Shown here one piece after another: positions 5,748 through 15,480 of a stretch of 64,000 nt of DNA. The stretch comes from Candidatus Methanoperedens sp. Lineage in GTDB: Archaea > Halobacteriota > Methanosarcinia > Methanosarcinales > Methanoperedenaceae. Position 1 is the stretch's first letter. Each line of letters begins with the position of its first letter. Below the pieces are notes generated by a model. It ran no database searches. It was not told where the DNA came from and was given only the letters and a program-made list of their open reading frames with translations. Location: the NCBI GenBank assembly GCA_028715885.1, contig JAQUQX010000001.1:1-64000 (forward strand), written 5' to 3'. A program made the position numbers and the translations under genes.

Positions 5748-5810
5748 ATGGTTCTTGATGGTGTTTTTTTGGTTTATAGTTATTGAAGAAATCAGACTTA
5801 TTAAAAATCT

Positions 5811-5872
5811 ACAACGAACTGGTATGACCTCGTACTAACTCAGGTCATCGTGAGTTCGTATTAGTTCGTTGT
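5811..5872. repeat. Nested inverted repeat between nreA and the metE-like gene
   Basis: The outer arms ACAACGAACT (5811-5820) and AGTTCGTTGT (5863-5872) are perfect complements. Inner arms ATGACCT (5824-5830) and AGGTCAT (5842-5848) also pair, and AACTCA/TGAGTT (5837-5842/5851-5856) offers an alternative pairing. The heptamer AGTTCGT is repeated directly at 5853 and 5863. The element starts right after the nreA stop and ends 63 bases before the metE-like start, so it could be a terminator, an mRNA switch or an operator. Confidence 0.75.
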
Positions 5873-7129
5873 TTATTTTCCAAAGAAATCCTCAAGTCCT
5901 CTCTGGTATAAAGTATCCTTCAACACCGTGCTCTCCTTTATCCACCGCGCCTTCGGGATAACAAGCCTCGTTGAAATATACGCAAAAGCCTCATCAAGAG
6001 ACACGAACTTCCCCGGAGGCGCCCAGAGCGCTGCCCTCACGTTCTCCCTCACGTTCCACACCCCGACTGGCATGATGTACCCCGGATGCGCTTCCCTCAG
6101 AATCACCACGCGCGCCTGCCTTCTCTCCTTCACGAGGTATTCATTCACCGCAAGCCGCGCGGCATAATAGCAGCCGCCAATCTCGGCATATGTCGTTCTC
6201 CCTTCAAAACCCTCGGAGGACGACATTATCGCCACATCTTTCCCGAACGGGTTCCAGACGGTATTGGGATACCATGCCTCGATAAGCTCATAGCTCCAGG
6301 CGCGCGGCATCATCAAAACCACGAACCTGTTATCAAGCTGCCATGATTCAAAAACAAGATATTCATTGATGAGCGGGAAATCCTTCATTTTCTCCATCAG
6401 GTTTGCCCCTATCATGCTATCGACGGCGGTAATGCTCCACCGAGTGGGAACAAAGCGGCGCGCTTTTCCTTCCCCGAAAGAACCCACAGAAAAAGCTTTC
6501 TGGATGCTTGAGACAAGAGTATCCCTTTTGTAAAGCTCAAGCACCGCATCCTTTGCCTTGAGGTCGGTATCGTTGTATGCTTTTTCCATCTTCTGGTCGA
6601 ACCTGGTATTGCCCATTTCGATTTTCTTAAGAGGCGCAGTCGGTCCAAACGGCTGCACCTCGTCATCGAGCACAAGCCTTGCCCTTGGTTTTTTCAGGAA
6701 TTCAGCCTCTACATCTACAGGGGATGCGGACAGCGCCATCTCCCGCGTGGCTTCTATGATGCGGCTGCCTTCAAGGTTTCTTATATGCACAAGATGCTTG
6801 CCGCGGACAAGCTGTGAGCGAAAATCCACGATATCATCGATACTCTTCCCCAGCCACATTTCGGGCGTGTCAAGAAGAGTTGTGTCGCCGTGCGAGGGCG
6901 GGATTAACGGACCCACGGAAACGTATGGATAGCCTATCCTTCCCACAAATACGCCGGGCGGCGAGGAGCCGTCGATGTTCAGGCTGTCAGTGAGCGGCTT
7001 GACTTTTGCCCTGGAATAGAATTTGACAAGGACGGGACACCTCTGTTTGCCGCATAATAGTTTTGCTCCCCGGCAAAGAATGCAGAGGGCGTCGCTTGTG
7101 CCGCTAAATAGCGAATCAGGACTTTCCAT
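5873..7129 (-). CDS. nreA: Archaeal DNA repair protein NreA
   Basis: NreA is an archaeal repair protein that works with the sliding clamp PCNA. The N terminus has a Cys cluster (CILCRGAKLLCGKQRC, about 16-31) that suits the family's zinc site. The body has the Nre signatures PPGVFVGRIGYP and VSVGPLIPP. The last residues, QRGLEDFFGK, match a PCNA-interacting (PIP) box Q-x-x-L-x-x-F-F, which in this family mediates clamp binding. Length (418) is normal. It is divergent from queD, and the 83-base spacer holds TATA-like sequences for both directions. No frameshift is seen. Confidence 0.92.
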   Translation of the reverse strand: MESPDSLFSGTSDALCILCRGAKLLCGKQRCPVLVKFYSRAKVKPLTDSLNIDGSSPPGVFVGRIGYPYVSVGPLIPPSHGDTTLLDTPEMWLGKSIDDIVDFRSQLVRGKHLVHIRNLEGSRIIEATREMALSASPVDVEAEFLKKPRARLVLDDEVQPFGPTAPLKKIEMGNTRFDQKMEKAYNDTDLKAKDAVLELYKRDTLVSSIQKAFSVGSFGEGKARRFVPTRWSITAVDSMIGANLMEKMKDFPLINEYLVFESWQLDNRFVVLMMPRAWSYELIEAWYPNTVWNPFGKDVAIMSSSEGFEGRTTYAEIGGCYYAARLAVNEYLVKERRQARVVILREAHPGYIMPVGVWNVRENVRAALWAPPGKFVSLDEAFAYISTRLVIPKARWIKESTVLKDTLYQRGLEDFFGK

Positions 7130-7233: not shown

Positions 7234-7713
7234 ATGTTCATTGAAATAGACGGCTGGATGGCAAAACTGCGATTTTCGGCATGCCATTTCATACCAAATC
7301 ATCCCAAGTGCGGCTGCCTGCACGGTCATACGTATGCGGTTAGCGTGCGGCTTGAAGGCGAACAAATCGGGGAATTTATCATTGATTTTGAGTTTGTTAA
7401 AAATATGGTAAACGGGATTTGCGACAGGTTAGACCATAAAGTGCTGATAGCGGAAAAAGACCCGCGCCTCCGGATTGCTAAAAATGATGGTGTCTCAATT
7501 GAAATAATCGAAAGTAAAAAGCGATATGTATTACCCTTTGAAGATATTATGTTTCTCCCCACGAAATCGGTGAGCGCCGAAGACCTGTGCAAGTATTTCA
7601 CAACCGAAATGGCAAAGGCACTGAAATCAAATGGCGCGGATAACATTAAGAGGCTCCATGTCAGGGTGGATGAAGGGATAGGACAGGGGGCGGGATGCGA
7701 GCACGAGATGTAA
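7234..7713 (+). CDS. queD: 6-carboxytetrahydropterin synthase family protein (QueD)
   Basis: This is a T-fold enzyme that makes 6-carboxy-5,6,7,8-tetrahydropterin on the path to preQ0 and archaeosine in tRNA. Zinc ligands are His in FSACHFIP and both His of LHGHTY. The catalytic Cys lies in KCGCLHGH. The C-terminal part has the family's acidic ending DEGIGQGAGCE. ATG 7234 is preferred because of the TATA box, although an in-frame TTG at 7213 and ATG at 7258 also exist. QueE, the next enzyme of the pathway, is at 49924. Uniquely here, three partial copies of the 3' end of this gene lie downstream at 8475, 9656 and 10724, separated by toxin-antitoxin-like modules. Confidence 0.92.
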   Translation: MFIEIDGWMAKLRFSACHFIPNHPKCGCLHGHTYAVSVRLEGEQIGEFIIDFEFVKNMVNGICDRLDHKVLIAEKDPRLRIAKNDGVSIEIIESKKRYVLPFEDIMFLPTKSVSAEDLCKYFTTEMAKALKSNGADNIKRLHVRVDEGIGQGAGCEHEM

Positions 7714-7807
7714 ATTTCATGATTTCTTCATAAACGGTAATATTTTGTGACAGCAATCAATGGTCTTTATATTGCAAAAGAGAAAATAATAGATAAGGTG
7801 AAACAGC

Positions 7808-8056
7808 ATGAAAGCGGAAAAATTACTTGAACGCATAACTCTTGATCCCAATGTTATGACTGGAAAACCTGTAATCAGAGGGACAAGACTTACGGTGCAG
7901 TTTATCTTGGGGTTATTAGCGCATGGCGCTTCTGTGGAGGAAATCCTTGAAGAATACAAAGGATTAACAAGGGAAGACATAAAAGCATGTTTGCTATTCG
8001 CAACAGAATCCCTTGCAGATACCACATTTATGCCTTTGACAGCAGAGGCTTGTTAG
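7808..8056 (+). CDS. DUF433 antitoxin (VapB45-like)
   Basis: The protein has 82 residues and the DUF433 signature: ITLDPNVMTGKPVIRGTRLTVQFIL followed by a helix-turn-helix-like segment (EEILEEYKGLTREDIKACLLFA). DUF433 proteins are typically antitoxins paired with a PIN-like DUF5615 toxin, exactly the arrangement here, since the next gene starts right after its stop codon. AAGGTG lies about seven bases upstream of the ATG, and a TATA-like TTTATATT lies near 7766. It is the first cassette of the queD-tail array. Confidence 0.88.
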   Translation: MKAEKLLERITLDPNVMTGKPVIRGTRLTVQFILGLLAHGASVEEILEEYKGLTREDIKACLLFATESLADTTFMPLTAEAC

Positions 8057-8410
8057 ATGCGTTTCCTTGTGGATGAATGCACAGGACCTGCGGTTGCACA
8101 GTGGCTGCGCCGGCAAAATCATGATGTGATTTCCGTATTTGATGAGCTCAGGGGAGCAGATGATAGAGATGTTATCCAGAAAGCCTTCGAGCAAAATCGC
8201 ATACTGATAACAAATGACAAAGACTTCGGTGAGCTTGTTTTTCGGGAGAAAAAGCCGCATAAAGGCGTGATACTTCTGCGCCTTGAAGATGAACGGGCTG
8301 CAAACAAAATAGCTGTAATAGAGCGCTTGCTTGAAAAGCATGGGAAATCCCTTTCCGGAAATTTTATTGTTGTGACAGAAACTACTGTCAGAATAGCGGG
8401 AAAGACCTGA
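8057..8410 (+). CDS. DUF5615 PIN-like toxin (VapC45/Mut7-C type)
   Basis: The 117-residue protein begins MRFLVDECTGPAVAQWLRRQ. This is the DUF5615 start, in which the early Asp/Glu pair and the later acidic motif ITNDKDFGELVF form a PIN-like metal site. Such proteins are predicted RNases of toxin-antitoxin pairs. It starts directly after the DUF433 stop, so the two are co-translated. All acidic residues expected for activity appear to be present. A queD tail fragment begins 64 bases after its stop. Confidence 0.88.
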   Translation: MRFLVDECTGPAVAQWLRRQNHDVISVFDELRGADDRDVIQKAFEQNRILITNDKDFGELVFREKKPHKGVILLRLEDERAANKIAVIERLLEKHGKSLSGNFIVVTETTVRIAGKT

Positions 8411-8474
8411 ATCAAGAACATCAATTTTTATGATGAATTTCAACCGCAAGATAGATATGTGCTCAGTAATCCCC

Positions 8475-8577
8475 AGCAAAAGCCCTGAAATCGAATGGTG
8501 CGGATAATATCAAGAAGCTACATGTCAGGGTGGATGAGGGAATAGGGCAGGGGGCAGGGTGCGAGCACGGGTTATGA
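8475..8577 (+). pseudogene. Truncated queD copy (3' end, copy 2)
   Basis: This stretch encodes the last ~33 residues of QueD (from AKALKSNGADN to GCEHGL, stop TGA) in an open frame with no start. Against the intact gene at 7234, most differences are synonymous wobble changes (nine synonymous and three replacement over the last 27 codons). This implies that it comes from a separate functional allele and was not an in situ copy left to decay. After the stop, TTTTAATTCGTGTTGGC (8601-8617) matches the sequence after copy 4. Confidence 0.9.
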
Positions 8578-8627
8578 AAATTTTATTTTGTGAGATGGTG
8601 TTTTAATTCGTGTTGGCTGTTATATCT

Positions 8628-9176
8628 CTAATCTTCTTTGCAAAATTCCCTTAATGCCTTCAGAATACCCTCATCTTTTGCTTTCTTTTCCAGATACCTA
8701 AAATCTAACCTGTCCCGGTAATATCTAATCATATACCGCGCCTGTTCGCAATCCGTTTCCGACTCCCAGTGAACACATGCATTGAGACGGTCAATTATCA
8801 AGTCCTCGATGCCGATTATATATAATTTTAAGCTGCCAACCCGTATGGTAGTTATTTTATTTTTATCGCCTGAAAAATGATCGCCGGGCACTTCGATGAA
8901 TATCCCTATCCGCTCATTTACCCAATGCCTGCCAGCACGTGCAAAACCAAATTTCTTCTCCAGTATTTCCCCTATAACCCTTCGGTCTCCAATGAGGTCG
9001 ATGTCACGGCTTGGGAATAACCCTCTGGTATAAATATCGACTGCCGTTCCACCAACTACCACAGGCGATTTACTGGTTCTGCCAAACATCTCAACCTCTC
9101 TTGTTAAGATAGTGATAAAATATTTTTTTCTGTCTACTAAATTGGTGATGGAAGCTGTTTTATCGAGTTCGTCCAT
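8628..9176 (-). CDS. Nucleotidyltransferase-like protein (DUF6036/AbiEii type)
   Basis: The protein has a nucleotidyltransferase fold with GGTAVDIYTRG followed by SRDIDLIG, the G-G and D-x-D motifs of the MNT/AbiEii group. The rest is helical, with several Asp/Glu that could complete the site. It is probably the enzymatic part of a toxin-antitoxin or abortive-infection pair with the AbrB gene upstream. I place the start at ATG 9176, one base after the AbrB stop TGA (9178-9180). A longer in-frame start at 9206 would overlap AbrB by 29 bases. It is the second cassette of the queD-tail array, in opposite orientation to queD. Confidence 0.8.
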   Translation of the reverse strand: MDELDKTASITNLVDRKKYFITILTREVEMFGRTSKSPVVVGGTAVDIYTRGLFPSRDIDLIGDRRVIGEILEKKFGFARAGRHWVNERIGIFIEVPGDHFSGDKNKITTIRVGSLKLYIIGIEDLIIDRLNACVHWESETDCEQARYMIRYYRDRLDFRYLEKKAKDEGILKALREFCKED

Positions 9177-9177
9177 C

Positions 9178-9453
9178 TCAAATATCCATCCTGATTTCTC
9201 GGGCACCTATAAATTTGATTTTCCCCTTTGCTATGTCTGCATCGAGCTCTGCTTTCATTATTCGATAGAGCCCCTCAGCTTCGTCCTCATTCCTTGGCTT
9301 GCGCCTGATGGCTTTGCCGGCTACGGGGCTTATGAGTATGCCATCTTTGGTTGAGGTTATTTCCACTGTCTTTGGATAACCTATTTCTTGTAGAAGGTCT
9401 CTTGGGATTATGATTCCCTGACTGTTTCCTATTTTCCTGATATTTCTTATCAT
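9178..9453 (-). CDS. AbrB/SpoVT-type DNA-binding antitoxin
   Basis: The 91 residues begin with an AbrB swapped-hairpin domain (MIRNIRKIGNSQGIIIPRDLLQEIGY...). The C-terminal tail is charged (about 50-91) and probably binds the partner nucleotidyltransferase. AbrB antitoxins repress their own operon. A 14-base perfect palindrome lies between the TATA box and the start, which suits self-regulation. The transcript would be almost leaderless. The partner gene follows one base after the stop. Confidence 0.88.
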   Translation of the reverse strand: MIRNIRKIGNSQGIIIPRDLLQEIGYPKTVEITSTKDGILISPVAGKAIRRKPRNEDEAEGLYRIMKAELDADIAKGKIKFIGAREIRMDI

Positions 9454-9461
9454 GTTAGAAC

Positions 9462-9487
9462 AATGTTATAACATTCATAGTATATAA
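9462..9487 (-). promoter_or_regulatory. Promoter and palindromic operator of the AbrB/NTase operon
   Basis: AATGTTATAACATT (9462-9475) is a perfect palindrome. On the minus strand it lies just downstream of a TATA box, TTATATA (9481-9487), and about ten bases before the AbrB ATG, over the expected transcription start. This is where an autorepressor would sit. Confidence 0.7.
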
Positions 9488-9561
9488 GACTTAGGTTTAT
9501 TGGTGGGTGTCAAATCTTTTGGTGTTACAAACCAAAAAAAAAAACACAAATACGCTATCAC

Positions 9562-9595
9562 AAATCTGCGTTCATCGGCGTTCATCTGCGGTTTC
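9562..9595. repeat. Intergenic TCTGCGTTCATC repeat unit
   Basis: AATCTGCGTTCATCGGCGTTCATCTGCGGTTTC is built of near-repeats of GCGTTCATC. A related sequence occurs at 52064-52090 before lysA. It is non-coding and lies between the AbrB promoter and queD tail copy 3. Confidence 0.55.
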
Positions 9596-9655
9596 ATATT
9601 TACAAATATTTCATGATAGCCCCCAACACCAAACTTTTTTACAGCCTCGTTTGTT

Positions 9656-9744
9656 GGTCAAACGGTGTGGATAATGTTAAAAAACTCCATGTCAGGGTGG
9701 ATGAGGAGGTAGGGCAGGGGGCGGGGTGTGAGTATGGGTTATAA
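9656..9744 (+). pseudogene. Truncated queD copy (3' end, copy 3)
   Basis: The shortest tail fragment encodes SNGVDNVKKLHVRVDEEVGQGAGCEYGL and stops TAA. It is open and start-less. It differs from the intact gene and from copies 2 and 4 mainly at third codon positions, with a few conservative changes. Downstream sequence after the stop does not clearly match the other copies. It separates the AbrB/NTase module from the MNT/HEPN module. Confidence 0.87.
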
Positions 9745-9773
9745 GAATATTATATATTTTTATAAAATATAAT

Positions 9774-10229
9774 TCAAGCAATCCCCTTCAATCTCTGTAT
9801 CGGCCAGACCCAGGCGCTTCCAACGCGCTTTATTCCCTGTATTTCAAGCTCACTTTTTGCCTGTGGAATTATCTTTCTTAAAAACCCCATATCATAAATT
9901 ATCCTTCCTTCATGGATCGCATCCAGAAGGTATCCTGCTCCTGCTTCGAACTGTGAGATGAATTCCTCCTCAGTCATCCAGATGCTCTGCAAAAGAGATG
10001 GACAATTCTCGATTTTCCTGACCAGTTCAGCCCTTTTGAAAAAATCAGAAGGCAGATCCTTTGCCACAACGATCATGTCAATATCGCTTTGCGGAAAAGG
10101 CAGCTCCTCACGGCGCGCAACCGAGCCAAAAAGGAGCACTCCTGTTACCCTGTGCTTTACTTTTTCAAGATATTCTTTTATAAGTGCGGCATATTCTTCA
10201 TTTAGACCCTTTAAGGAATTGTTTTCCAA
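9774..10229 (-). CDS. MNT-type minimal nucleotidyltransferase (antitoxin of MNT/HEPN pair)
   Basis: The 151 residues carry the minimal nucleotidyltransferase signature GSVARREELPFPQSDIDMIVV (G-S-x(n)-D-x-D). In characterised MNT/HEPN pairs such an enzyme adenylylates the HEPN toxin and neutralises it. The gene overlaps the end of the upstream HEPN gene by 32 bases, so they form one operon. The C-terminal part is helical and unremarkable. It is the third module of the queD-tail array. Confidence 0.88.
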   Translation of the reverse strand: MENNSLKGLNEEYAALIKEYLEKVKHRVTGVLLFGSVARREELPFPQSDIDMIVVAKDLPSDFFKRAELVRKIENCPSLLQSIWMTEEEFISQFEAGAGYLLDAIHEGRIIYDMGFLRKIIPQAKSELEIQGIKRVGSAWVWPIQRLKGIA

Positions 10230-10641
10230 GCTCCATTACCTCCTTTGCATTGTTAAAAAGGGCTCCTGACTTATTTGCATCATAAATTTCAGATGGCATT
10301 ATGATCTTATCAACGGTTTCCCATCCATACCTCGGAGATTCCTTCTGGCTCTCTAATAACTTTGAAAAATTCACAATTCGATCAAGAGTTTCAAGCTCTT
10401 GCTTTGATAATTGAAATTTATTCCCCCTCATAACCATCAATTCGAGCACAGACGAAGGAAAATGAGTTTTTCCAGACTCAATCCCAAGAGATGAAAGGAT
10501 GGCTTTGCAGACTTTTTCGGCGCACTGCTGTGAATGAAATACTGAACTTGGGAACCTGCTATTTTTAATATCCAGTGATGCGTCTTTCAGGTCTTCTTCT
10601 GCCATTTTCAGCCAGTATTCTGATTTTGCCATAGTTTTCAA
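10198..10641 (-). CDS. HEPN-domain protein (toxin of MNT/HEPN pair)
   Basis: This is an all-helical HEPN protein of 147 residues, with the family segment FHSQQCAEKVCKAIL (about 36-50). HEPN toxins cut RNA through an R-x(4-6)-H motif. The canonical RX4HXY of HepT is not seen here. The only nearby candidate is R30-x6-H37 in RFPSSVFH, so the catalytic state is uncertain. It is the first gene of the pair and probably shares a promoter near 10650-10680 with the MNT gene. Confidence 0.83.
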   Translation of the reverse strand: MKTMAKSEYWLKMAEEDLKDASLDIKNSRFPSSVFHSQQCAEKVCKAILSSLGIESGKTHFPSSVLELMVMRGNKFQLSKQELETLDRIVNFSKLLESQKESPRYGWETVDKIIMPSEIYDANKSGALFNNAKEVMELGKQFLKGSK

Positions 10642-10723
10642 ATGATCTGAAATAGGTTTAAGTTCTATTTTAGCAATAAATCGTTGCGCCTAATATAAAT
10701 AACATCTCTGTAAGGTAATATGT

Positions 10724-10957
10724 GAAAAAGGATGGCGTTTCAATTGAAATCATCGAAAGTAAAAAGCGATATGTATTGCCTTTGAAGATATTGTGTTCCT
10801 CCCCACGAAATCGGTGAGTGCCGAAGACCTGTGCAAGTATTTCTCAACCGAAATGGCAAGAGCGTTAAAATCAAATGGCGCGGATAACATTAAAAAGCTA
10901 CATGTAAGGGTGGATGAAGGAATAGGGCAGGGGGCGGGATGCGAGTATGAGTTATAG
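10724..10957 (+). pseudogene. Truncated and frameshifted queD copy (copy 4)
   Basis: The longest fragment covers about the last 78 codons of queD, from KDGVSIEIIESKKRYVL to the stop TAG. One base is missing from a C run (GTATTGCCTTTGAAG against GTATTACCCTTTGAAG in the intact gene at about 7530), which shifts the frame near 10777. After the stop, GTTTTAATTTGTGTTGGC (10981-10998) matches the sequence after copy 2. The remaining bases up to 11113 are AT-rich with no gene seen. Confidence 0.9.
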
Positions 10958-11113
10958 GAATTTTATGTTTATGAAGGGCTGTTTTAATTTGTGTTGGCAA
11001 TTATGTCTGGATACAATATATTTTAAAAACAAATCCCAATGAAATCAAGTTTTTGAATTTAGTTATGGGATGGGGCAATGCATTTATATTTCCTATATGT
11101 TTAAAAAATTATC

Positions 11114-12289
11114 TCAACATTCGGATGGTGTTGGATTGTTTAAGAATTCATTATACGGTTCAGGTTTTATTATTTCTGTACCAGAGTCTCTAAATTTTTT
11201 TATGAGTGAATCTGGTAGTTGGTTATCTGCTTTTGGATTTAAACATAATTCTGTAAGAATTTTATATCTATTATCAAAATAGCGGATATACACTAAAACC
11301 GCAGAAACCAGCGAGTTGTCTATGATTTCACCTTCTTTAATAGGAAAAATATCTCCTTTTGTTTTCCATACTCTATCAAACCCAAGGCCAATGAAAATAT
11401 TGTTTATTTCAGGAATTGAAGACGGTTCTAAATATAATGCAATAATATTTGGATTAGACTCCGATAATTGTTTATTTTTTATTTTCCCAAGAATTTTATC
11501 TTTATAAATAAAAGGTTGTGTAAACTTGATTTTTCTATATTTAGAAGTATTCGCATATACTTTTAACTTATCATTTTCATTCTTCACAATGAATTCATCT
11601 GTTCTACCGTCGTCGATTTTTAGGTTTACTTTCGTTTCTTCATTGTTAAGTTTTAGCAAAATAGATTTTACTCCAAAAGATACTTTTATGGTCTTACCAC
11701 TATCAATTTTTTCAATTTTTGTTTCCTCTAAATCGATATAATAAATCTGTTTTAGATAGTGTACGAGGAAGGCATTGTCGTTTCCTGGAATATCATCCCA
11801 GCTAAATATGTCATTACCTTCAATTCTAGGTCTTTCCTTAATTGACACTTCAATAAATACTTCCACTCCATCACTATTAATTTTTATATCGCTTTTACTG
11901 CCATTTATGCCTAAAATAGGAGGTTCGAATTCAATTTTAAATTCCATTTTTTTAAAAAAAGAGCCGATTTCAATTTCTGCTAATGCACTTGTATAATCCT
12001 TTTTATTTTCGATATAATTATTTTTTTTATTAGTACCTAATAGTCTTTTAAAATGGTCTTCTTGGGAATTGATTTCATACTCCATATCCTTCAATAATTT
12101 TTCAATATAACCTAAATATTGAAGTGAATGACTATCTAAAAAATTTCCATCTTTATCTTCAAAGGTAAATTGTTTCGCTAGCGGATGCATTTCTTCTTGA
12201 TCTTTTGTAAATTCATTTTCAAACCATTCTTTGTTAAATCTAGCAGAAATACTTGGATAGTTCTTAATAACAGAAGTATTTATCATCAT
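11114..12289 (-). CDS. AT-rich protein of unknown function with a possible PD-(D/E)xK nuclease core
   Basis: The 391-residue soluble protein is far more AT-rich than the surrounding genes, which points to recent transfer. I do not recognise the family. Residues about 103-155 (AEIEIGSFFKK ... SDIKINSDGVEVFIEVSIKE) have the spacing of a PD-(D/E)xK nuclease core: a Glu helix, then a strand Asp, then E-V-S in place of E-x-K. This pattern is suggestive only. The rest is beta-rich, and the C-terminal third is mixed. It follows the last queD fragment and may be a defence gene of the same island. No partner gene is adjacent. Confidence 0.7.
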   Translation of the reverse strand: MMINTSVIKNYPSISARFNKEWFENEFTKDQEEMHPLAKQFTFEDKDGNFLDSHSLQYLGYIEKLLKDMEYEINSQEDHFKRLLGTNKKNNYIENKKDYTSALAEIEIGSFFKKMEFKIEFEPPILGINGSKSDIKINSDGVEVFIEVSIKERPRIEGNDIFSWDDIPGNDNAFLVHYLKQIYYIDLEETKIEKIDSGKTIKVSFGVKSILLKLNNEETKVNLKIDDGRTDEFIVKNENDKLKVYANTSKYRKIKFTQPFIYKDKILGKIKNKQLSESNPNIIALYLEPSSIPEINNIFIGLGFDRVWKTKGDIFPIKEGEIIDNSLVSAVLVYIRYFDNRYKILTELCLNPKADNQLPDSLIKKFRDSGTEIIKPEPYNEFLNNPTPSEC

Positions 12290-12549
12290 TTTTACTTATG
12301 ACTTTATACTATAAAACATTGATTATTAATAATCCGCGACATTGAAAAACAACTTCTTGCCGTTGAATATAATTTTTCATATCGAAAAACCACATATAAT
12401 TTTATAATATTCATTTTTTAGGACCGTTTCAATTTACCACCACGAACTGAAACTCCCCCTCCAATTACATATTATTTTATATCATCATCTTCGTAATATA
12501 ACTCGTTTGATGAACCCAGTTGAACAGGGTCGCCAAAAAGGAACGAATA

Positions 12550-15480
12550 ATGACCAGCAGGATTGAAGTAGGTTTTAAAAAAGGAATGAAAGACGCATTG
12601 GGCGATGGTGTCAAGAAAAGGATAGTCGAAGACCTGCATATTAACGTGGATTCTGTCAGGACTATTGAGGTTTACACCTTCGACGCTTCTCTCTCGGAAA
12701 AGGAACTGAATCTACTTGGTGAACAATTATTTGCCGACCCCGTAATCCAGGTCTTCTCATCCAAACCGTTGGCAGAGGATTTTTCATGGCTGATAGAAGT
12801 GGGATTCAAGCCGGGTGTGACCGACAATGTTGGCGCGACTTCGAAAAAGGCATCTGAAGATGTGCTTAAATCTGAATTACGCGGAGTTTATTTTTCAAGA
12901 CAGTATCTTATAAATGGAAATATCACAAAAGAAGATGCCGATAAAATTGCAGGCGGGCTTCTTGCAAACAGCCTGATTGAAAGGTGGGTAATAATAAACA
13001 TTGACGGATGGGACAGCAAAAAAGGCGTGCACCTTCCACTGCCGGTCGTGAAAGGAAAACATACACCTTCGGTTTCGGAACTGAATCTGGATGTCAGCGA
13101 CAGCCGGTTAAAGGAAATGAGCGTTCAAAGACTTCTTGCCCTGAACCTTGCGGAAATAAAAACAATTCAGAAGTATTATTCTCTTACCGGTGTCAAAAAA
13201 GAACGGGAAGCTATCGGCCTTTCTCTTCCCACCGATGTGGAAATCGAGGTGCTGGCGCAGACGTGGTCTGAACACTGCAAACACAAGATTTTCAACAGCC
13301 AGATAACTTATACAGATGATAAAGGAACAAAAACCATAAACTCGCTTTTCAATACCTTCATAAAACGCGCAACTAGGGAAATAAACAAACCCTGGCTTGT
13401 CTCTGTTTTTACAGACAATGCCGGCGTGATTAAATTCAACGATGACTACAACCTTGTGATGAAGGTTGAAACGCACAACACCCCTTCGGCGCTTGACCCT
13501 TACGGCGGCGCAATCACAGGCATCGTGGGCGTGAACCGCGACCCGCTGGGTACGGGAATGGGCGCGCGGTTGATTTTCAATACCGATGTTTTCTGTTTTG
13601 CCTCGCCTTTCTATGATAAGGAGCTGCCGCCCCGCCTGCTCCATCCCAAGAGGATATTCGAAGGGGTACGGCGGGGCGTGGAACACGGGGGGAACAAGAG
13701 CGGTATCCCCACGGTGAACGGCTGCATTGTTTTTGATGAGAGGTATCTCGGCAAACCGCTTGTTTATTGTGGCACTGGCGGGATAATGCCCTCAGTAATA
13801 AACGGCAAGCCTTCCCACATTAAAGAGCTCAATCCCGGCGACCTGATAGTGATGACCGGCGGGCGCATAGGGAAAGACGGCATACACGGAGCCACGTTTT
13901 CCTCGCTTGAGCTTGATGAGAATTCACCTGTAACAGCAGTCCAGATAGGCGACCCGATAACCCAGAAAAAGATGCTCGACTTCCTTCTTGAAGCACGGGA
14001 TCTGGGGCTGTATAACGCCATCACGGATGACGGCGCAGGAGGATTGTCTTCATCGGTAGGCGAGATGGCGCAGCTTAGCGGAGGATGCCTTATCGAACTT
14101 GAAAAATGCCCCCTGAAATATCCGGGTCTTGACCCGTGGGAAATACTGGTTTCAGAGTCGCAGGAAAGAATGACGCTTGCCGTATCTCCTGAAAAGATAG
14201 ATGAATTCCTGGCTCTTGCAAAAACAAGGGATGTCGAGGCTACGGTCATAGGGACTTTCACGGACAGCGGAAAATTCCATGTAAAATACGGTGAGAAAAA
14301 TGTGGCTTATCTCGATATGGATTTCCTGCACAGCGGTCTTCCAGTTATGAAGCTGAATGCACGATGGGAACCCCGGAAGTTCGAAGAACCCGTGCTTGGG
14401 ATTGTGGATTTAACAGCAGCGCTTAAAACACTCCTCTCGCGTCTTAATATATGTTCAAAAGAATATGTTATCCGGCAATATGACCATGAAGTGCAGGCTG
14501 GCTCGGTCATAAAGCCTCTTACAGGCGATGGTCCAAGCGATGCCACAGTCATCCGTCCTCTCCTTGACAGCATGGAAGGCGTGGTGGTGGCAAACGGCAT
14601 CTGCCCCAGATACGGAGACATCGATACCTACCACATGACCGCCTGCGCAATCGATGAAGCAGTGCGGAACCATATCTGCGTGGGGGGTTCGTTTGACCAC
14701 CTTGCGGGTCTTGACAACTTCTGCTGGTGCGACCCTGTGAAATCCGAGAAAAATCCTGATGGAGAGCTAAAACTGGCGCAGCTTGTGAGGGCGAACAAGG
14801 CGTTATATGATTACACGAAAGCCTACGGCGTGCCCTGCATTTCAGGAAAGGACAGCATGAAGAACGATTATATCATCGGGAGACGGAAAATATCCATACC
14901 GCCTACTGTGCTTTTCTCAACTATTGGCAAGATAGGGGATGTGAGGAAAGCGGTGACTATGGACGTGAAGAAACCGGACGACAGGGTTTATGTTCTCGGC
15001 ACGACGAAGGACGAACTCGGCGCCTCTGAGTATTTTGCTTCTCTTGGTTTTATAGGCAACGACGTGCCAAGAGTTGATGCGGCGTCTGCAAGGCAGTTGT
15101 ACATCGCGCTTGAAAAAGCCATCCATGAAGGCGCAATCGCCTCGTGCCACGATTGCTCAGACGGTGGTCTGGGCGTGGCGCTGGCTGAGAGCGCGTTTTC
15201 TGGCGACCTTGGCATGACAATTGAATTGACAAAAGTACCTGTTGAGAACATCAGGCGCGCTGATACCATACTGTTCTCCGAATCCCAGAGCCGTTTCGTG
15301 GTGACTGTGGCGCCGGATAAGGTTCGGAGGTTCGAGGAGATTATGAGAGGAAACGTTTTTGCAGATGTTGGTGCAGTCACTTCAAGGCAGGAATTCACGG
15401 TGATGGATGGGGAGAAGGTTGTGCTGAGCGCGGGGATTGATGAGTTGAAAGAAGCGTGGCAGAAGACGCTGCGGTGGTAG
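12550..15480 (+). CDS. purL: Phosphoribosylformylglycinamidine synthase, PurS-PurS-PurL fusion
   Basis: This is the FGAM synthase catalytic subunit of purine synthesis. Two PurS-like repeats occupy the N terminus, each starting IEVGFK (about residues 4-70 and 80-150). They are followed by a full PurL with the linker, tandem ATP-binding AIRS-type domains and motifs such as WSEHCKHK and VKVETHNTPS-like (MKVETHNTPSALDPYGGA). The glutaminase part is absent and is supplied by purQ downstream. I choose ATG 12550 because AAGGA lies about seven bases upstream. A TTG at 12520 would add ten residues. The upstream 260 bases are AT-rich with no gene. Confidence 0.95.
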   Translation: MTSRIEVGFKKGMKDALGDGVKKRIVEDLHINVDSVRTIEVYTFDASLSEKELNLLGEQLFADPVIQVFSSKPLAEDFSWLIEVGFKPGVTDNVGATSKKASEDVLKSELRGVYFSRQYLINGNITKEDADKIAGGLLANSLIERWVIINIDGWDSKKGVHLPLPVVKGKHTPSVSELNLDVSDSRLKEMSVQRLLALNLAEIKTIQKYYSLTGVKKEREAIGLSLPTDVEIEVLAQTWSEHCKHKIFNSQITYTDDKGTKTINSLFNTFIKRATREINKPWLVSVFTDNAGVIKFNDDYNLVMKVETHNTPSALDPYGGAITGIVGVNRDPLGTGMGARLIFNTDVFCFASPFYDKELPPRLLHPKRIFEGVRRGVEHGGNKSGIPTVNGCIVFDERYLGKPLVYCGTGGIMPSVINGKPSHIKELNPGDLIVMTGGRIGKDGIHGATFSSLELDENSPVTAVQIGDPITQKKMLDFLLEARDLGLYNAITDDGAGGLSSSVGEMAQLSGGCLIELEKCPLKYPGLDPWEILVSESQERMTLAVSPEKIDEFLALAKTRDVEATVIGTFTDSGKFHVKYGEKNVAYLDMDFLHSGLPVMKLNARWEPRKFEEPVLGIVDLTAALKTLLSRLNICSKEYVIRQYDHEVQAGSVIKPLTGDGPSDATVIRPLLDSMEGVVVANGICPRYGDIDTYHMTACAIDEAVRNHICVGGSFDHLAGLDNFCWCDPVKSEKNPDGELKLAQLVRANKALYDYTKAYGVPCISGKDSMKNDYIIGRRKISIPPTVLFSTIGKIGDVRKAVTMDVKKPDDRVYVLGTTKDELGASEYFASLGFIGNDVPRVDAASARQLYIALEKAIHEGAIASCHDCSDGGLGVALAESAFSGDLGMTIELTKVPVENIRRADTILFSESQSRFVVTVAPDKVRRFEEIMRGNVFADVGAVTSRQEFTVMDGEKVVLSAGIDELKEAWQKTLRW

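Follow-up and report, generated by a model that had tools for sequence, protein, structure and literature searches.

This article concerns a stack of gene fragments and small gene pairs in a metagenome-assembled genome (MAG) of Candidatus Methanoperedens (GenBank assembly GCA_028715885.1), which belongs to a group of methane-oxidising archaea that are uncultured. By "the window" we mean the whole stretch analysed, positions 1 to 64,000 (64,000 nucleotides; nt) of contig JAQUQX010000001.1, which is 176 kb long. Between Nre (5873-7129, minus strand) and purL (12520-15480), an intact gene of the PTPS/QueD family is followed by three two-gene modules that alternate with three shorter copies of its own 3' end, here called tails. 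Reading away from queD, the order is a DUF433/DUF5615 module, tail 1, an AbrB/nucleotidyltransferase module, tail 2, an MNT/HEPN module, tail 3, a 391-amino-acid (aa) open reading frame (ORF) and purL. Each module pairs putative toxin and antitoxin domains, as in type II/VII toxin-antitoxin (TA) systems. The intact gene scores 67 bits against the NCBIfam QueD equivalog, below its cut-off of 89 bits, and "queD" is therefore used as a family-level name. The features are as follows, with layers counted from oldest (1) to newest (3).

7234-7713, plus strand: intact PTPS/QueD-family gene, the anchor of the stack, mosaic (PF01242, E 7.3e-21)
7714-7747, no strand: flank after the stop codon, type D, common to the intact queD of G010 and tail A of G029 and reaching the promoter region of the DUF433 module
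7808-8056, plus strand: DUF433 protein, putative antitoxin, layer 3 (newest; PF04255, E 1.7e-25)
8057-8410, plus strand: DUF5615 PIN-like protein, putative toxin, layer 3 (PF18480, E 3.6e-27; PF18478, PIN_10)
8412-8475, no strand: the DUF433 module's right flank, captured (8412-8434 matches the onward sequence of the copy on G010:C122), then unassigned sequence as far as tail 1
8476-8577, plus strand: queD tail 1, 34 codons including the stop
8628-9206, minus strand: DUF6036-like nucleotidyltransferase, putative toxin, layer 2 (PF19502, E 7.8e-4, below the gathering cut-off)
9178-9453, minus strand: putative AbrB/MazE-type antitoxin, layer 2 (PF04014, E 4.1e-6)
9538-9649, no strand: dispersed, genus-wide repeat left of tail 2
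9656-9744, plus strand: queD tail 2
9774-10229, minus strand: MNT-type nucleotidyltransferase, MntA-like putative antitoxin, layer 1 (NTP_transf_2/Polbeta, PF18765/PF01909; weak match to NF047752, MntA)
10198-10641, minus strand: HEPN putative toxin, layer 1 (oldest; PF05168, E 5.6e-19)
10724-10957, plus strand: queD tail 3, 78 codons, one frameshift
10958-11008, no strand: flank after the stop codon, type P, on the purL side, common to the end tails of G010 and G029
11114-12289, minus strand: 391-aa ORF between tail 3 and purL, outside the tail-separated stack

A preliminary description of this DNA, made from its letters, had already reported truncated queD 3' ends alternating with three two-gene modules, and self-comparison, tblastn and Pfam bear this out. 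Self-comparison finds the queD 3' end in four copies (7612-7725, 8476-8589, 9643-9756 and 10856-10969, with a longer copy at 10725-10970), and a tblastn search of the window's whole genome recovered these same copies and no other queD-like sequence. Every tail ends in its own stop codon (TGA at 8577, TAA at 9744 and TAG at 10957 for tails 1 to 3). The left ends differ and map to about 7612 (tail 1), 7629 (tail 2) and 7480 (tail 3) of the intact gene, giving tails of 88-234 nt in the window.

Two of these left junctions can be followed in other genomes. In G010, the orthologue of tail 2 reaches further 5', to about codon 57 of queD; the repeat at 9538-9649 is missing at the corresponding junction, and another repeat, with a 9-nt target duplication, lies inside tail 2 there. 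For tail 3, the window, G010 and G019 have one and the same left junction, which falls at a common TGAAAAA..GG stretch. A short stretch is common to the module flank (ATGAAAAAAAGG-like, in G026 and G030) and to queD (GTGAAAAAGG) at this point, as would be expected of a microhomology join.

The relatives arrange themselves as a nested series. We compared 34 genomes of the family; queD-like matches were found in 31, one of which (G015) holds a fragment only. Tails are present in G000, G010, G019 and G029, and G015 has one as a fragment. About 25 relatives have no tail, and where both genes were recovered the gap between queD and purL is 0-730 bp. G019 carries one layer (queD, MNT/HEPN, tail), G010 carries two (queD, AbrB/nucleotidyltransferase, tail, MNT/HEPN, tail), and the window carries three, with DUF433/DUF5615 and one further tail added on the queD side relative to G010. 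Since the one-, two- and three-layer versions have the tail-3 junction in common, they belong to one history in which layers were added beside queD; the stack thus grows at the queD side, as the preliminary description had proposed. The queD protein is conserved: that of the window is 94% identical in aa to that of G010.

Other orders occur too. In G029, the order is DUF433/DUF5615, queD, an MNT/HEPN remnant, a VapBC-like pair, tail A, HicB-type genes, tail B and purL (this array spans two contigs with an identical 105-bp end in common), and in G011 DUF433/DUF5615 lies upstream of queD with MNT/HEPN remnants behind it. Separately, G026 holds two full-length queD genes on separate short contigs (L050 and L054), which may be mixed strains or a real duplication.

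Because the tail-bearing genomes named here are metagenome assemblies, in which some arrays are found where a contig stops (G010, G029), an assembly chimera or binning artefact has to be weighed. The array type recurs in the independently assembled G010, G019 and G029, with the same junctions in independent MAGs, and the window's own contig extends over 176 kb. The array is thus no misassembly, and we give such an artefact next to no credence.

The sequence of the tails says more about their origin. Tail 1 differs from the intact gene at 13 of 94 aligned nt, distributed 0/1/12 over the three codon positions (12 synonymous changes, 1 replacement). For tail 3 the distribution is 4/2/16, and for eight tails summed, each against its own intact gene, 22/19/109. 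Between intact genes, 81% of the differences fall at third positions, whereas a neutral duplicate made in place is expected to show at most about 57%. Against that expectation, p=0.0074 for tail 1; when every distinct tail is counted once, 44 of 56 differences lie at third positions (57% expected) and p=0.00065. The preliminary description was right that the differences lie mostly at third positions, but its count of nine synonymous and three replacement changes departs slightly from the figures for tail 1.

The intact gene itself is a mosaic. Left of about nt 310, 19 of the 27 discordant sites side with G019 and 8 with G010; beyond that point the preference turns, with 17 of 19 on the side of G010 and 2 on that of G019. 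The permutation p value for this split is 0.0004, in a test that takes neighbouring sites as independent. The 3' end of the resident queD thus differs in ancestry from its 5' half, which lends support to allele displacement by recombination anchored in queD. From the third-position bias and the tests against duplication in place we conclude that the copies separated as working alleles, in keeping with the earlier proposal that the pieces descend from different functional queD genes. The bias and the mosaic gene disfavour, for queD, the decay in place of one duplicated copy.

An obvious competitor is that each module inserted in situ with a long target duplication: a transposition-like or template-switching event would duplicate 70-300 bp (up to 700 bp) of the resident 3' end, and both copies would be identical at birth. 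Such events would leave just the anatomy seen here, and target duplications that are long and variable, of about 100 bp, are described for restriction-modification (R-M) systems in the accounts of PMC3874152 and PMC3031569. It meets several objections. At queD, the differences are too heavy at third positions for a neutral tail. The flank should have been duplicated along with the gene end, yet homology stops at the stop codon. Tail 1 and the intact gene of the same genome stand 17% apart (15 of 86 end sites, a greater distance than that of several other species' intact genes), though the layer of tail 1 is unique to the window's genome.

Our preferred explanation, to which we assign a probability of about 0.6, is that the stack preserves a succession of recombination events with a core gene as their anchor. 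A related strain would supply DNA in which a queD 3' part is joined to a TA module, and this DNA would pair with the resident queD. A crossover inside the gene would yield an intact queD made of the resident 5' part and the incoming 3' part, with the module directly behind it. The far end would be joined without extended homology, either as a linear fragment joined illegitimately inside the resident gene or as a circularised fragment that integrates through a single crossover and has a truncated start of queD on board; in Escherichia coli, circularised DNA entering by a single crossover produced gene-end duplications of 109-950 bp (PMC3240628). By either route the displaced 3' end would stay behind as a tail with an arbitrary left end, its own stop codon and the former queD flank. 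Repetition would give module, tail, module, tail, the newest beside the gene, and the tails could later offer homology by which strains exchange modules or lose them. How the crossovers ran, whether the donor DNA was linear or circular and which species supplied it are what we infer, not what we observed. The modules were probably kept because they are addictive.

The modules lead lives of their own. Copies of DUF433/DUF5615 at 83-92% identity lie away from queD tails in about a dozen other genomes, and MNT/HEPN is 92-94% identical in G026, G007, G030 and G027, among unrelated neighbours, while queD there reaches only 77-79%. Identities of 88-94% between modules of species whose queD genes stand at 77-79% show that the modules travel; they are horizontally mobile in their own right. 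A fixed native site was considered and rejected: the neighbours of the DUF433, MNT/HEPN and AbrB/nucleotidyltransferase copies vary between genomes. At the site of the G010:C122 copy, the window's genome has no DUF433/DUF5615 module. The preliminary description had named modules away from any queD tail as an argument against import; they do occur, and we read them as mobility of the modules.

In a further account, the tails are old and the variety arises mainly by homologous exchange between tailed strains, with modules swapped and layers lost by loop-out between intact gene and tail. Several observations suit it. Between the window and G019, the MNT/HEPN module is 98% identical (96-99% with its flank), Nre 90%, and tail 2 no more than 79% when set against the end of queD in front of that module in G019, the change falling exactly at the stop codon. 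Tail A of G029 has the same small inserted repeat and 9-nt target duplication as tail 2 of G010, and the two are therefore one tail with different modules behind it (MNT/HEPN in G010, a HicB-type module in G029), so that modules have been exchanged around a common tail. Similarly, the types of flank after the stop codon are shuffled among the queD copies. This account leaves the origin of the first tail at each gene and the nested order unexplained, and describes a later process, not an alternative origin; as an origin we judge it quite unlikely. Within the preferred explanation, the shuffled flanks and the one tail with different modules are our grounds for proposing tail-based swapping at a later stage.

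The arrangement is not limited to queD. Searching outward from the flanks of the same modules in other genomes, we found the same anatomy at several genes, with tails of 69-705 nt. In G017 (L308), an intact class-V aminotransferase gene is followed by HicBA, a tail, DUF433 and a tail; the copies are 91-94% alike and unrelated from the first base past the stop codon. Single aminotransferase tails also occur in G010 and G029, and the one in G010 (L346:1950-2530, on G010:C2) stands behind a putative membrane-protein ORF with no recognised TA pair, so the cargo may not be TA modules only. In G002 (L273), tldD is followed by a PemK/MazF-type pair and a tail. Three 5'-truncated DNA-methyltransferase copies alternate with DUF433/DUF5615 and a ParE-type module in G007 (L319), and seven PEF-CTERM gene ends alternate with PIN, MNT, DUF433/DUF5615 and other modules in G022 (L162:692-6283, on G022:C34), the longest array seen. 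Alongside these, a TIM-barrel gene and its tail surround Bro-N and DUF433/DUF5615 in G031 (L161), fdhD is duplicated around MNT/HEPN in G030 (L165), and 5' parts of a GT2 glycosyltransferase gene alternate with MNT/HEPN and one further module in G008 (L167). In other arrays, copies share 86-94% identity as far as the stop codon, and the likeness ends right behind it, as expected for alleles from different genomes.

A survey of 35 HEPN and 20 DUF433 loci, picked by rank before their repeats were inspected, gives this a wider footing. Spaced direct repeats straddle 16 of the 55 TA loci and 1 of 51 control positions (p=8e-5), though not all of these repeats are gene ends, some being dispersed elements; when the count is restricted to repeats that occur at a single locus, the figures are 9 of 55 and 0 of 51 (p=0.0019).

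A third-position bias like that of queD recurs at the DNA-methyltransferase (L319) and GT2 arrays and, weakly, at the aminotransferase, and so counts against neutral duplication in place at L319 and, to a lesser degree, L308. The fdhD copies (95% identical over 705 nt; codon-position differences 8/10/15) and the TIM-barrel tail (0/2/0) show no such bias. These two look like in-situ duplications, and at least two origins may therefore be mixed among the arrays. As the explanation for the stack, insertion with target duplication seems to us unlikely, though not remote.

Stacked insertions behind one gene, with gene ends repeated between them, are also familiar from the tandem accretion of integrative elements at gene 3' ends, as with staphylococcal cassette chromosome (SCC) elements at rlmH and with integrative and conjugative or integrative and mobilisable elements (ICEs and IMEs). 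Were the stack of this kind, the queD tails would be attachment (att) sites, and the targeted gene 3' end, the gene-proximal position of the newest layer and the repeated gene ends would all follow. Here, however, we found no integrase or recombinase gene in any layer of the window's stack, the tails vary in length without a constant att core position, several host genes are used, and the cargo is very small. We consider site-specific accretion very improbable.

Several results weigh against allele import by recombination in queD, besides the two loci without coding bias. When the 231-nt region is put into a tree, tails from the same genome fall apart, yet a topology that unites copies by genome is not rejected (approximately unbiased test, p=0.39 for the intact gene plus tail 1, p=0.11 for all four copies); with only 231 columns, the trees are too weak to prove import. 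The earlier claim of recombination into the chromosomal queD is favoured by the mosaic gene of mixed ancestry and left without proof from the trees. The contrast between tail 2 and the module beside it implies that MNT/HEPN was last exchanged, and recently, between the lineages of the window and G019 without queD coding sequence. By the same token, the earlier expectation that a tail would lie closest to the queD of a strain that carries its module is borne out by gene order and fails for sequence (79% for tail 2 against G019). The DUF433 modules of G029 and G011 stand upstream of queD, between dispersed repeats and not tails. No intermediate donor with only a queD 3' end and a module was found. 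A viral or plasmid vehicle was also considered and set aside: scans of IMG/VR with queD and MNT gave no relatives, phage and plasmid record collections not having been searched.

A few neighbouring sequences are worth recording. The 391-aa ORF at 11114-12289 has no Pfam or NCBIfam match, and an ORF 35-37% similar to it lies upstream of queD in G006 (L072:198-668). A palindromic element occupies 5803-5876, between metE and Nre; similar copies adjoin the DUF433 module and queD in G029 and G011. In G029 (L066:2936-3907) and G011, a dispersed repeat stands in direct copies on both sides of the DUF433/DUF5615 module upstream of queD, which makes this another type of repeat-flanked position. The 9538-9649 repeat (CTGCGTTCATCGGCGTTCATCTGCGG...) has copies in nearly all Methanoperedens genomes, many of them in G018. 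Behind DUF5615, the stretch 8408-8461 recurs in G000:C16, G010, G029, G009, G013, G020 and G002, where a TTTATACTTTCCTATAC-like motif often follows it.

The preliminary description knew of no precedent for such growth, but two bodies of work come close. For R-M systems, insertion with long, variable target duplication of about 100 bp has been described (PMC3874152 and PMC3031569, citing Nobusato 2000 and Furuta 2010). As these accounts present it, a two-gene selfish module without a recombinase inserts and leaves a direct repeat of at least about 100 bp of the target gene. Variable direct repeats of the target around the module and an empty site in a close relative are found here too. What differs from those accounts is that insertions pile up at one gene as tail arrays, that the cargo is archaeal TA modules, and that the queD copies resemble different alleles and not duplicates of one resident sequence, an origin with which fdhD and the TIM-barrel gene are compatible.

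The second precedent is the sequential displacement seen in the type VI secretion system (T6SS) immunity-gene arrays of Vibrio cholerae (Kirchberger 2017, PMC5361080) and in orphan 3' ends of Rhs and contact-dependent inhibition (CDI) genes. Growth there is gene-proximal, through recombination that is anchored by homology and in part illegitimate; it moves displaced 3' ends and modules downstream, and mosaics form by later homologous exchange. G019, G010 and the window show the same gene-proximal growth with displaced 3' ends downstream, and the mosaic queD corresponds to a hybrid resident gene with an imported 3' part. In those systems, however, what is carried in is the variable end of the effector, and it alters the protein, whereas here the anchor protein is conserved, the core-gene product is unchanged and the cargo is unrelated TA modules. 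Homology-facilitated illegitimate recombination and single crossovers (PMC3240628) likewise have one homologous end and one that is not, but those were laboratory events in bacteria.

Given these precedents, the mode of growth is not unheard of. A partial literature search found no paper on such arrays in Methanoperedens; as far as we searched, three features are new: TA modules are the cargo while the core genes in front of them stay unchanged, several genes of a single archaeal genus bear tail arrays, and layers numbering one, two and three form a clean nested series.

These arrays bear on an open question, namely how TA modules can move through chromosomes with neither a transposase nor an integrase. 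They give a layered record of such gains, in which tail left ends, stop-codon junctions and allele differences can be read as strata. Recurrence at several genes of one genus makes an automatic survey feasible, and allele displacement, target duplication and exchange between tails differ in predictions that can be tested. For Methanoperedens itself we offer a broader suggestion, tentatively and at somewhat less than even odds: the genus may have a general, recombinase-free way of gaining genes, in which small addictive modules settle behind core-gene 3' ends. Every core gene would then be a possible anchor, restored each time with an imported end, and the tails, as common homology, would let modules circulate between species like cassettes.

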